Positions 11,671 to 16,150 are shown, numbered from the stretch's first letter. The stretch is DNA of 64,000 bases from Pseudotabrizicola formosa (GCF_002900965.1 NZ_PJOM01000004.1:1-64000); one strand, 5' to 3'. Translations and numbers: made by a program. Notes: a model not told the origin generated them from the letters alone.

Positions 11671-12607
11671 TGTTTTGCCTGTTTGTTGTTCGCACCTTGT
11701 ATTAGGAGCTCTGAACGTCAAACGGAATAGCCGCATGCGGCCGAGACGACCGCCCTTGTCAGGCACGACCGGTCCCCTGCGGGATCACTTGCCCTGGTGG
11801 AGATGTAGTCTTCGGCCACACCACGCGTCGATGGCCTGCCGAAACCCTTCGCAAGGCCAAGACTTTTTTACGAAATCAATGATCGAGTCGCTCTTAGTGC
11901 AGGCAAATGTCCATCAAGCAAGAGCGCACGCACATTACCATCCGGAGGGGCTCAGCAATAGCCCGTTGTCCCCGATACTGGCCCTGAACGGGCGACCCTC
12001 GGTACAGACGCGGCCGAAGGGGCGGCGTTGATATTGTCATGTGTTGCGATGCCGAGAAAATGCGCCACAAGATCCAGCGCCGCCCGGCAGTCCAAACTCG
12101 TTACCACTACCATCACCCCTCCCGAGGCTTTGCCCCAAACCGATTCGCACGTTTGTCGCTCAGAATTGGGGTTGCAATTTGTCTTAACAGCGAAGCTCCC
12201 CCATGGACTGTGTTCTTTTTGCCGTAATGTGGTCACATTTTGTTGTGGGGTTCTGGCCCGAGTCTTGCCTTCGGCAACGCGGTATGAAGCGGCCAGACTG
12301 GGCCGCGCCAATGGTTTCGGAGCAGCGAACAAACCCGCATCTTCACCACAATTCGAGGTTGTATTGGCCGGACCGCGTACATTTTGTAAGTCCCACAGGG
12401 AAACAGAGGTGCATCAGCCCCTGTAACGACGACCCGAGCCTTGGTCCTTCGGCCAGACCGCCAGTTGCAAAATTGGAAACATTTCGCAAAGACCATCCGC
12501 GCAGTTGGTAAAAGTCCTTGCAATGTCCGCCTCGCATCTTAACGTATTGTTAACTAATGAGGTCGTGCAGCAGGCCCTTCCAAACCGAACTCTGGAGTCT
12601 TCCTTCC
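11671..12607. other. Long gene-free region upstream of the methyltransferase gene
   Basis: Over 900 bases without a reading frame I can support. Overlapping open frames occur on both strands, but none has a ribosome site or recognisable protein segment. It holds a palindromic site AATGTG-GT-CACATT (12226-12239) and the TTAAC/GTTAA repeat just before the methyltransferase. It may be a regulatory region, decayed genes, or hold an RNA I cannot recognise. Confidence 0.4.
12539..12553 (+). promoter_or_regulatory. Inverted repeat TTAAC-N5-GTTAA upstream of the methyltransferase
   Basis: TTAAC (12539-12543) and GTTAA (12549-12553) flank GTATT. The site is AT-rich in GC-rich DNA and lies 54 bases before the ATG at 12608, a good place for an operator or the -10 region. 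The regulator is unknown; the kinase/regulator pair downstream is a candidate. Confidence 0.4.
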
Positions 12608-13378
12608 ATGCCGTCACACACACGTGTCGAGGGGTCCGATCTTGTGACTCTTCAAAAAAGTGATGCTGCCGATCGCAGTGTCCGCGTCGACTGGAACAGC
12701 TACGCATCGGCCTACGATCTGCTGTCCGAGCACAACCCAGAGTATCAAGCGTTGCTGCACGACTTTGAGGCCTTTCTGGCAACAATAGAAAAACCGCGGC
12801 TGATTTATGACATCGGTGGCGGCACCGGAAATTATACCAAGATTGCCGCGCGCATCTGCCCCGAGAGCGAAATTCGCCTGATGGAGCCCGATGCAGGCAT
12901 GATCGGCATGGCCAAATCCAAACTCGCGACGCATGGCAACATCAGCTATGGCACCCTCGCTCTGGAAGACATCGCTGCAAGCGAAGCCGCAGATCTGGTG
13001 ATCTGCGTGCACGCGCTTTACACTATGCCCTCCCCAGAGGAGCGGCTTGTTGACCTGCGTCGGCTGCTGCGCCCGGGCGGCTGGCTCTATCTGATCGATA
13101 TGGGTCGGCACATGGATGTACGCGACTGGCGCAATTACCTGTTCTCGAGTCTGAGACAACAACTCGGGCTGGCGGGCGCGCTTCGGGTCTTCTGGCAGGG
13201 TCGCGAAATCGCCAAGCAGAACAAGAACATCTTCGAGGCACAAAAGGCCGGCGACTACTGGACGCATAGCGAAGCAGAGCTGGCAACTGCGGCCACCGCT
13301 GCCGGTTTCGAAATCGTCAGGAAGCAATCTGTCTATCGTGGATACAGTGACCTGCTCGTCTGTCGCGCACGGGCATAG
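12608..13378 (+). CDS. Class I SAM-dependent methyltransferase
   Basis: A 256-residue protein with a class I methyltransferase fold. Motif I is IYDIGGGTGNY, the acidic residue ending beta 2 is in RLMEPD, and the post-motif LLRPGGWLYLIDMG is typical of small-molecule methyltransferases. The ATG at 12608 has GGAG about ten bases upstream; the ATG at 12557 is open but lacks a ribosome site and lies at the promoter-like repeat. It is 24 bases upstream of a FeeM-like acyltransferase and in line with a histidine kinase gene, so it may modify the product of the acyltransferase. The acceptor is not readable from sequence. Confidence 0.85.
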   Translation: MPSHTRVEGSDLVTLQKSDAADRSVRVDWNSYASAYDLLSEHNPEYQALLHDFEAFLATIEKPRLIYDIGGGTGNYTKIAARICPESEIRLMEPDAGMIGMAKSKLATHGNISYGTLALEDIAASEAADLVICVHALYTMPSPEERLVDLRRLLRPGGWLYLIDMGRHMDVRDWRNYLFSSLRQQLGLAGALRVFWQGREIAKQNKNIFEAQKAGDYWTHSEAELATAATAAGFEIVRKQSVYRGYSDLLVCRARA

Positions 13379-13402
13379 CGGCGCAGAAAGACAGAAAAAC
13401 CA

Positions 13403-14095
13403 ATGATGAACCCACATGTCATCGAAGCGCTGCAACGCTCCCGCTATAAAGTTCTCAGCGAAAGGGCCGAGCTCGAAGAGATCTATCGCCTGCGCTACAA
13501 ATGCTATCTCGCCGAAGAAGCGATTGGCGAAAATGAGACGGGGATGCTCACCGACGCGCTCGATGACGCGCCGAACTGCGTCCATGTCGCGATCGAGGTC
13601 GATGGGAAGGTGCAGGCGGCGATGCGGTTGCACCTTCTGTCAGATCTCTCGCTTACTTCGCCGACGCTGGATGTGTTTCCCGAATTGGCGGAGCATCTCA
13701 AGAAGGGGCAGACAATTCTGGATCCCACCCGCTTCGTGATCGATCCAGAGGCCCGCAAGATGCGCGTGCCAATACATTTTCTGGCCCTGCGTATTCCGTT
13801 TCTTGCCGCGATCTTCTACGATATAGACTTGGCGCTTGCCTCTGTAAGAACTGAGCATATTGCATTTTACCGCCGGTACCTTGGGTATACGCTGGCGATC
13901 AAAGCGCGCGACTATCCTGGGCTAAAAAAGCCGCTGCATCTTCTGACTGCAAATTTCAGAAAACAGCGCGACGCCGTTCTGGCACGTTCACCGGTCTTTG
14001 GCCCCATCGAAGAATTCCCGCATGCCGACATCGCCTTTCCGGCGCTTTCGGGGGTCTATACCGCTTCGAAGGCGGGCAGGTCCGAGGCCGCCTGA
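13403..14095 (+). CDS. FeeM-like N-acyl amino acid synthase / autoinducer-synthase-fold acyltransferase
   Basis: A 230-residue GNAT-fold protein resembling FeeM, the N-acyl amino acid synthase related in fold to LuxI homoserine-lactone synthases. Such enzymes move a fatty acyl group from acyl carrier protein to an amino acid. The typical N-terminal Y-R-x-R-Y-x-x-Y helix is present as IYRLRYKCYLAEEAI, as are MRLHLLSDL and the DPTRFVIDPEARK segment (like the E/D-x-x-R-x-x-v of this superfamily), then FYRRYLGYT. The ATG at 13403 has only a weak ribosome site; a second ATG follows at 13406. It lies between a methyltransferase and a membrane histidine kinase, a context suggesting a diffusible acyl signal. 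Substrate and product are not known. Confidence 0.72.
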   Translation: MMNPHVIEALQRSRYKVLSERAELEEIYRLRYKCYLAEEAIGENETGMLTDALDDAPNCVHVAIEVDGKVQAAMRLHLLSDLSLTSPTLDVFPELAEHLKKGQTILDPTRFVIDPEARKMRVPIHFLALRIPFLAAIFYDIDLALASVRTEHIAFYRRYLGYTLAIKARDYPGLKKPLHLLTANFRKQRDAVLARSPVFGPIEEFPHADIAFPALSGVYTASKAGRSEAA

Positions 14096-14308
14096 CAGGC
14101 ATCTGATGTGGCGTTGATGGCGCAACACGGTACAAGACAAGCCACACCGCCGCGCCTTTGCTGATTGTCGCGCAAAGCGCAACTTGCAATGTCAGCCTTA
14201 TATTTGCCATTATCATCTGAGGAAAAGCCACGCGCCGCCCGTCGTATGGCCGAATTTCGACACATTGGCACAATAGGGCTCGCATTTACGACAGCGGCAG
14301 AGGCATGC

Positions 14309-15727
14309 ATGATTGACCTGCAGATGGTTAGGGCGGCCTGGGCGAACCGGTTCAACACGGACGGTCGCGAAAAACTGATCCGAGATTACGTGGTCCTTCT
14401 CAACCAGGTGGTCTGGCAGCGGCAGGCGAGCTTCTTTGCCGCCGCCGTTTTGGCGGCGCTGTATTTTGATCCGATCTCTACCTTCGCATCTTACGCGCTG
14501 GTCGTTGTCACCGAGATGCTGGACTTGATGCTTGCCCGAAAATCCAATGCCTGGGATGGACGAGACCCCGTGGTGGGCCGAAAAATCCTCAGGGGCATTG
14601 CTGTTAACACGGTCCTCAGTGCTGTGGCGATCAGCATTTTCAGTATCAACATAGCGGTTCAGCAGACATCCGGGGGACATTTCACCCCCCTGTTCTTTTT
14701 GTTTTCTGCATCCCTGTTCGCGGCAATGTACAACAGCCAGATGGTCGGCATCCTGCTTTTGCGTCTGTCGATCTACGGGGCCGCGTTTCTCTTTATCGCG
14801 TTTCTTGACGTCTACCGCTACTTTCCTCCCCTGAGCTCTCCGGTCTGGCTGGAGTTCTTCACGATCATATTCGTGCTCTATTTCATCGTGGATATCTCGG
14901 CGAAGTTCTATCGAAACTATCAGGACCGGCTGGACCAGATGAAACTGCTCGAGGCGGAAAACGAGCGGACCAAAGTTGCCTTGGAAATCAAGTCTCAGTT
15001 TCTTTCGACGGTCAGCCATGAATTGCGCACGCCGCTGACCTCGATCATCGGCGGGCTGGACCTTGTCAACAATGGCGTCCTTGGTGAGGTGCCTGAAAAC
15101 CTCAGGCCCGTGATCGGCGTCGCGGCCAAAAACGGACATCGGCTTGCCAGCCTGATTGACGACCTGCTGGACCTGCAGAAGATCGAGGCAGGAGAGATCG
15201 TGTTTCATCTCAAACCAATAGACGCAAACGATCTGGTGGCCGATGCCGTGGAATCGACCATCGGTTATGCAGACAAGCTCGGTCTCCGGGTTGCAACCGT
15301 TCCCTGCGGTGACGCGTGCCGCTTCATGGGCGACCGCAGCCGCATGATCCAAGTGATGAACAATCTGCTTTCCAACGCACTCAAGTTTTCCAAACCGGGC
15401 GGCACCGTCACGGTGCGCGTTGAAACCCGCGGCTCGCGTGTCCGCATCCTGGTCGAGGATGAAGGCGTTGGCATTCCGAGCGGGGCGAATGAGCGCGTTT
15501 TTGGCAGATTCAGTCAGGTCGATTCTTCGGATATACGCAAGGTCGGTGGCACCGGCCTTGGACTCAACATCACCAAGCAGATCGTCGAGCGCCACCACGG
15601 CATGATCGACTATATCAGCGAACTCGGTGTCGGATCGACATTTTTCATTGAATTTGAGCGCCTTACGGGTAAGGACGGGATAAACGCAGGTGCCAGTCCG
15701 GATGTCGCAAGCGGAACCACAGTATGA
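14309..15727 (+). CDS. Six-TM membrane histidine kinase
   Basis: A 472-residue sensor kinase. About six hydrophobic segments (roughly residues 40-190) form the sensor with almost no periplasmic domain, followed by a coiled linker and a complete kinase core. His237 in STVSHELRTPLTS is the phospho-acceptor; the N box is NNLLSNALKFSKPGG, then VEDEGVGIP, FGRFSQVD and GGTGLGLNI. I start at the ATG at 14309 with CAGAGG upstream. The frame is open back to 14165, with an ATG at 14189, but that extension looks atypical. A six-helix sensor recalls CqsS/LqsS-type quorum-sensing kinases, which detect hydrophobic signals in the membrane. The receiver encoded convergently at 15758 is the obvious partner. 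Confidence 0.85.
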   Translation: MIDLQMVRAAWANRFNTDGREKLIRDYVVLLNQVVWQRQASFFAAAVLAALYFDPISTFASYALVVVTEMLDLMLARKSNAWDGRDPVVGRKILRGIAVNTVLSAVAISIFSINIAVQQTSGGHFTPLFFLFSASLFAAMYNSQMVGILLLRLSIYGAAFLFIAFLDVYRYFPPLSSPVWLEFFTIIFVLYFIVDISAKFYRNYQDRLDQMKLLEAENERTKVALEIKSQFLSTVSHELRTPLTSIIGGLDLVNNGVLGEVPENLRPVIGVAAKNGHRLASLIDDLLDLQKIEAGEIVFHLKPIDANDLVADAVESTIGYADKLGLRVATVPCGDACRFMGDRSRMIQVMNNLLSNALKFSKPGGTVTVRVETRGSRVRILVEDEGVGIPSGANERVFGRFSQVDSSDIRKVGGTGLGLNITKQIVERHHGMIDYISELGVGSTFFIEFERLTGKDGINAGASPDVASGTTV

Positions 15728-15757
15728 CAGAAAACATCGCCCGGGCCAGAGGCGCGC

Positions 15758-16150
15758 TTACTGTGACGCGTTATACGTACGCCACAGGTCACGCAGCCGG
15801 TCGGCGAGACGCATCGGATCAAAGGGCTTTGGAATAACCTCCAAGGCGCCTTCCTTGATCAGACCATTCGAAAATTCCTCCCCGATCCGCGCCGTCATGA
15901 AGACAACCGGGACATCGCTCAGGCCGGGCAATTTGCGGAGTGCGTAAAGCGTTTCCCTGCCATCCATTTCCGGCATCATGTAGTCCAGCAGGAACATGTC
16001 CGGACCAAAGGCGACAGCCTCTGCGATTGCTTGTTTGCCGGAACTGCATTGCAGAAGCTCAAATTTGCCGATCTGTTTCAGCGCGAGATTCGCTATGAAC
16101 AAAACGTCTTCGGCATCATCTACGTGCAGAATCCGCTGCAGCTCTCTCAT
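15758..16150 (-). CDS. Single-domain response regulator
   Basis: A 130-residue receiver with no output domain. All catalytic positions are present: Asp11/Asp12 (HVDDAED), the phospho-acceptor Asp56 (LLDYMMPEMDG), Thr86 (FMTAR) and Lys108 (IPKPFDP). The ATG at 16150 has GAGGA seven bases upstream; an ATG at 16204 extends the frame without conserved sequence. It is convergent with the kinase gene, with only 30 bases between stops. Lone receivers act by protein contact or in a phosphorelay, so the output target lies outside this locus or is another protein. Confidence 0.88.
   Translation of the reverse strand: MRELQRILHVDDAEDVLFIANLALKQIGKFELLQCSSGKQAIAEAVAFGPDMFLLDYMMPEMDGRETLYALRKLPGLSDVPVVFMTARIGEEFSNGLIKEGALEVIPKPFDPMRLADRLRDLWRTYNASQ

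Follow-up and report, generated by a model that had tools for sequence, protein, structure and literature searches.

A 64,000-nucleotide stretch of the genome of Pseudotabrizicola formosa (GCF_002900965.1, NZ_PJOM01000004.1:1-64000; hereafter, the window) contains, at positions 12608-16150, a compact gene cluster that may both synthesize and sense an acylated signal. As an earlier reading, made from the sequence alone, had noticed, a methyltransferase, a FeeM-like acyltransferase, a histidine kinase, and a lone receiver domain are packed together here, and all four are present with their motifs intact (Table 1). What this sequence-only reading overlooked is a further element, a divergent micro-open reading frame (micro-ORF) that lies upstream of the operon and is conserved with it. 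Start codons at the locus were chosen by alignment with relatives, which supports 12608 as the best start of the methyltransferase. This 256-residue protein has the S-adenosylmethionine (SAM)-dependent fold of PF13489/PF08241 with an intact motif I (DIGGGTGN). The 229-residue acyltransferase scores 132.7 bits against the FeeM model PF21926 (cut-off 27), with coverage of residues 1-158 of 158, and 19.5 bits, under the cut-off of 24, against PF00765 (Autoind_synth), the model for N-acyl-homoserine-lactone (AHL) synthases; residues R31, D51, D54, R75, D107, and R110 are invariant across 13 relatives. An AT-rich short stretch, TTGTTAACTAATGAGG, lies at 12541-12570, 5′ of the methyltransferase gene; relatives retain part of it, and it is a candidate promoter element.

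Table 1. Features of the window at and beside the cluster
Feature	Coordinates	Strand	Evidence
Class I SAM-dependent methyltransferase, proposed carboxyl methyltransferase for an N-acyl amino acid	12608..13378	+	PF13489 1.4e-13, PF08241 5e-13
Predicted FeeM-type N-acyl amino acid synthase	13406..14095	+	PF21926 1.3e-38; PF00765 0.00078, below cut-off
Sensor histidine kinase, six-helix membrane sensor and complete kinase core	14309..15727	+	PF00512, PF02518, motifs, family alignment
Six-helix membrane sensor domain of the kinase	14420..14911	+	Family-average hydropathy; no Pfam domain
Lone receiver domain, convergent with the kinase	15758..16150	-	PF00072 1.4e-19
Micro-ORF, 53 amino acids (MVVVTSLDCRAALDLVAHFLGIATHDNINAAPSA...), divergent from the operon	11952..12113	-	Conservation, codon-position and pN/pS pattern

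The kinase, of 472 residues, contains HisKA (1.8e-17) and HATPase_c (2.6e-27) domains and intact H (SHELRTPL), N, G1, and G2 boxes, which together mark it as a two-component sensor kinase. Hydropathy averaged over 46 relatives fits the six-helix sensor proposed earlier, in which the loops are short and a periplasmic domain would have no space; the first of the six segments (about residues 38-56) was assigned by reading the sequence, the hydropathy script not having called it. None of the 46 members of the sensor family matches a Pfam domain in this region or falls into a known Pfam sensor class, and a sequence search for a relative of solved structure found none.

To assess conservation, the acyltransferase was searched for in 295 genomes, which sample each genus of Rhodobacteraceae about once, and then with a profile in 394. 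Eight strong homologues were found; a methyltransferase adjoins all eight and a kinase with the same sensor adjoins seven, the eighth homologue (genome G107) being located at a contig end beside a transposase-like gene. With the locus set enlarged by Pseudotabrizicola sediminis, by plasmids of Sulfitobacter and Loktanella, and by congeners, the trio of class I methyltransferase, acyltransferase, and kinase is found at 14 loci in at least six genera, with identity down to about 58%. Because the trio is kept at all of these loci despite unrelated flanks, the gene set is conserved far beyond chance. A second type of cassette, present at seven loci (six of them with the kinase), places the FeeM enzyme (PF21926, 1e-33 to 1e-39) beside an ICMT/PEMT membrane methyltransferase, not a class I enzyme. 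A methyltransferase is present in all 22 FeeM loci of this kind and the kinase is adjacent in 20 of them, the opposite of the acyltransferases mostly lacking a kinase that would have spoken against a joint function. The conserved co-occurrence anticipated by the sequence-only reading thus stands for three of its four families. The lone receiver is kept in all four cassettes of the window's genus and, among FeeM cassettes, in no other genus, which rules it out as a core component. The G107 locus (L020, 5464-8138) has a divergent methyltransferase-FeeM pair, with a possible LuxR-type helix-turn-helix regulator beside them and an insertion sequence at the contig end. The methyltransferase of a Sulfitobacter plasmid cassette (L090, 2782-4973) is interrupted by an IS256-family transposase gene, and beside the Sulfitobacter cassette at L089 (8553-10007) is a second kinase in which GAF, HisKA, and HATPase domains are joined to a C-terminal Ros/MucR domain, an odd kinase-DNA-binding fusion.

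The linkage between this kinase and the LuxI fold extends well beyond the FeeM cassettes. In profile searches, roughly one in eight of the sampled Rhodobacteraceae genera had the sensor family, and no match was obtained outside the Rhodobacteraceae among 337 genomes drawn from the whole class. A LuxI-fold synthase adjoins the kinase in 33 of 40 loci, which include the window and P. sediminis; in 26 of the loci the synthase is of the LuxI type and in seven of the FeeM type. The window kinase itself matches the sensor profile and adjoins such a synthase. By our estimate, which assumes about one LuxI gene per genome and some four thousand genes, well under one kinase-LuxI adjacency would be expected by chance. 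In nearly all of the 26 loci the LuxI-type synthase is within 1 kb of the kinase (at L063 it is at 3 kb), and PF00765 is above its cut-off in all four of the LuxI-type neighbors tested. A methyltransferase was not seen as a recurring neighbor at these loci. Some of the seven kinase loci with no LuxI-fold neighbor are on short contigs. The usual partners of the kinase also include receiver proteins of about 350 residues, one of which has a recognizable GGDEF-like domain. Collectively, these data suggest that a non-LuxR class of acyl-signal receptor is widespread in Rhodobacteraceae. Directly upstream of LuxI-type kinases at L069, L070, L071, L077 (8605-9012, minus strand), and L082 is a family of small proteins of about 130 residues, and the one member scanned had no Pfam match. 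At five loci from as many genera (L058-L062), a few kilobases separate the LuxI-kinase pair from genes that by eye resemble those of a Ser/Thr protein kinase and a PP2C phosphatase, together with the gene of a conserved companion protein.

The two types of FeeM cassette appear to have separate histories. In a maximum-likelihood tree of the sensor, kinases from cassettes with the class I methyltransferase group in one clade (support 100/99) and those from the ICMT cassettes in another (100/100), the latter nested in a well-supported group with LuxI-type kinases, and constraining the FeeM kinases to a single clade is rejected (AU [approximately unbiased] test, p = 0.010). The acyltransferase tree, which has long branches, agrees less firmly, with a single origin marginally rejected (p 0.042). 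The separate kinase clades and the rejected single origin lead to the conclusion that FeeM plus a methyltransferase probably replaced a LuxI-type synthase twice, with methyltransferases of unrelated fold: a soluble class I enzyme in one case and an ICMT-like membrane enzyme in the other. The exchange of synthase type within a kinase family that keeps its LuxI-fold neighbor provides a natural experiment in signal-receptor co-evolution. At residue 143 of the window kinase the NHQ motif reads NSQ in the class I methyltransferase cassettes, and the histidine is present in 14 of the 14 nearest LuxI-type kinases, making this position a candidate determinant of ligand specificity. Sensor residues that might have converged in both FeeM kinase clades relative to LuxI-type kinases were also sought, and the three positions obtained are not persuasive.

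The micro-ORF accompanies all 14 class I methyltransferase cassettes (the window, L005, L015-L017, L089, L090, L097, L154-L157, L163, and L164) and none of the ICMT cassettes, and it has no annotation in the public records examined. In several cassettes its ATG is preceded by GGAG, which resembles a Shine-Dalgarno sequence. Third codon positions vary most in its core, LDLVAHFLGIATHDNIN (mean 3.0 different bases vs. 1.8 and 1.5), and the mean ratio of nonsynonymous to synonymous change (pN/pS) of the core is 0.25 in frame compared to 1.2 and 2.8 when the two remaining sense frames are read; this value supersedes a first figure of 0.45 from 14 rows, which two misaligned rows had distorted. The micro-ORF is, then, under protein-level selection, and the idea that the upstream region is a conserved noncoding element is ruled out, as the conserved stretch behaves as protein. 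The micro-ORF product resembles the first ~34 residues of the receiver of the partner regulator, its conserved part corresponding to β1-α1. After the micro-ORFs themselves, the micro-ORF profile best matches the receivers of regulators that usually partner the kinase (E about 0.05), and the N terminus is still receiver-like in L015 (MKVLAVDDDQ...) and L163 (MKVLMIDDDQ...). In two-component systems, α1 is the helix with which receivers dock on the kinase, and it is a reasonable guess that the micro-ORF product is a kinase-binding microprotein.

The explanation that we favor for these findings, and regard as probable though well short of certain, is that the cluster is a self-contained acyl-signal module. 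In this model, the FeeM-type enzyme would couple a fatty acyl chain from acyl-ACP (acyl carrier protein) to an amino acid, and the methyltransferase would cap the free carboxylate, generating a neutral, membrane-permeable, AHL-like N-acyl amino acid methyl ester (NAME). The six-helix kinase would detect this lipid inside the membrane and control the phosphorylation of the lone convergent receiver, of receivers elsewhere, or of both, while the micro-ORF product, similar to the end at which the partner receiver docks, may adjust kinase activity. The sequence-only reading had allowed as the signal either a free N-acyl amino acid or the corresponding methyl ester; the ester is favored over the free acid because the second cassette type has, in the equivalent position, a membrane methyltransferase of unrelated fold. 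Most economically, the product of FeeM by itself would be a charged free acid, and esterification by the methyltransferase would restore a neutral molecule resembling an AHL. The earlier proposal of combined synthesis and sensing is strongly supported by genomic linkage, whereas we infer its substrates, product, ligand binding, and phosphotransfer steps. The genome also encodes a canonical LuxR/LuxI pair (G000:C10:106895-108231) and a LuxR-type solo (C7:838663); given the separate canonical pair, the kinase module would constitute a second, parallel channel.

Several observations weigh against this model. Class I methyltransferases hide their substrates at the family level, the nearest models including C-, N-, and O-methyltransferases, and the only hint that the enzyme acts on a carboxylate is the ICMT-family enzyme that stands in its place in the second cassette type. 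The kinase is absent from one ICMT-type locus (L158), no output regulator was identified as a partner of the lone receiver, and the link to naturally occurring NAMEs discussed below is at the level of the genus (Loktanella genomes), not from producing strains. Furthermore, the kinase could sense membrane disturbance instead of the lipid itself. The last point is central to an alternative that we consider unlikely, in which the product of the cluster is an N-acyl amino acid, or the methyl ester of one, with surface activity or antimicrobial action, and the kinase monitors membrane stress or self-damage, not cell density. In Loktanella, the genes just past the cassette fit such a role, encoding an efflux pump (HlyD plus MFS) as well as a TetR regulator, but the window-type cassettes have no conserved transporter and the same kinase family adjoins LuxI-type synthases in 26 loci.

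Two other proposals strike us as improbable. The system might resemble LuxM/LuxN, the acyltransferase being a divergent AHL synthase and the kinase serving as receptor for its AHL, with the methyltransferase having another substrate; RefSeq names the Loktanella enzyme an acyl-homoserine-lactone synthase, and LuxI-type enzymes do pair with related kinases. However, the enzyme matches the FeeM model far better than Autoind_synth (Table 1), the methyltransferase that always accompanies FeeM is not recurrent at LuxI-type loci, and the genome already has its canonical LuxI/LuxR pair. Comparably improbable is that the enzymes make a membrane aminolipid and that the kinase, encoded at the same place, regulates membrane composition. 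Acyltransferases of the ornithine-lipid type (OlsB-like, by resemblance) are remote relatives, but their matches are weak, they occur in other, housekeeping contexts with neither methyltransferase nor kinase, and the cassette lacks a second acyltransferase; they were therefore set aside as relatives of the cassette enzymes. Finally, that the genes merely travel together on plasmids, where the Sulfitobacter and Loktanella cassettes reside, with no common function is highly improbable, as gene order and content but not flanks are conserved over large divergence and the same functional set was probably assembled independently twice.

If the module acts as the favored model predicts, its product would be of a class already known from related bacteria. 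N-acylglycine methyl esters were obtained from Loktanella isolates D3, F13, and F14 and are native compounds, not work-up artefacts, while the compounds from Roseovarius strains are analogues built on alanine, aminobutyrate, and valine (PMC6296433). As late as 2024, the gene for the NAME synthase was described as unknown (PMC11580390), and our search of the open literature, with subscription papers outside its scope, found no paper naming NAME genes. FeeM acting with a carboxyl methyltransferase would be predicted to yield compounds of this same class, and Loktanella is both a producing genus and a carrier of the cassette: the acyltransferase of genome G006 is a 99% match to Loktanella salsilacus, and eight of nine genomes of the genus of G006 carry one or both cassette types, compared to a strong match in 8 of 394 genera across the family. 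NAMEs are known chemically without genes, receptor, or role, and the cassette offers testable genes in named genera. A more far-reaching proposal, which we put forward tentatively and hold somewhat doubtful, is that the cassette is the missing genetic basis of NAMEs and forms a complete new channel, with the kinase family as receptor, LuxI swapped twice, and tuning by a receiver-derived microprotein.

The arrangement at the window resembles several known systems in part. In LuxM/LuxN, CqsA/CqsS, and LqsA/LqsS, a signal synthase likewise lies beside a multi-helix kinase with no periplasmic domain, although these synthases are unrelated to the FeeM-type enzyme of the window. Known FeeM synthases share with the window enzyme the Pfam family PF21926 and a LuxI-like fold, but their product is a free acid and, to our knowledge, they have no kinase partner. 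The module of the window, as predicted here, shares its logic with the PhcB/PhcS/PhcR system of Ralstonia, in which a SAM methyltransferase makes a methyl ester signal, methyl 3-hydroxymyristate, that is sensed by a membrane kinase (PMC10576176). The Ralstonia signal is a fatty acid ester made without an N-acyl amino acid synthase. Orphan luxI genes linked to histidine kinases were described in roseobacters as topologies H, I, and J (Cude and Buchan 2013; PMC3824088), and a Sulfitobacter pontiacus plasmid shows a J-like divergent synthase-kinase arrangement. The novelty that the sequence-only reading saw in a kinase tuned to an acylated amino acid, free or methyl-esterified, is therefore partial: LuxI-kinase pairs and the methyl ester-kinase logic are known, while our search of the open literature turned up neither the FeeM/methyltransferase form nor the NAME link, the double swap, or the micro-ORF. 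The roseobacter kinases are probably of the same family as the window kinase, and these loci, too, place a LuxI-fold synthase beside a sensor kinase in Rhodobacteraceae; they contain a LuxI-type enzyme and no methyltransferase, in contrast to the FeeM-type enzyme, methyltransferase, and micro-ORF of the window.
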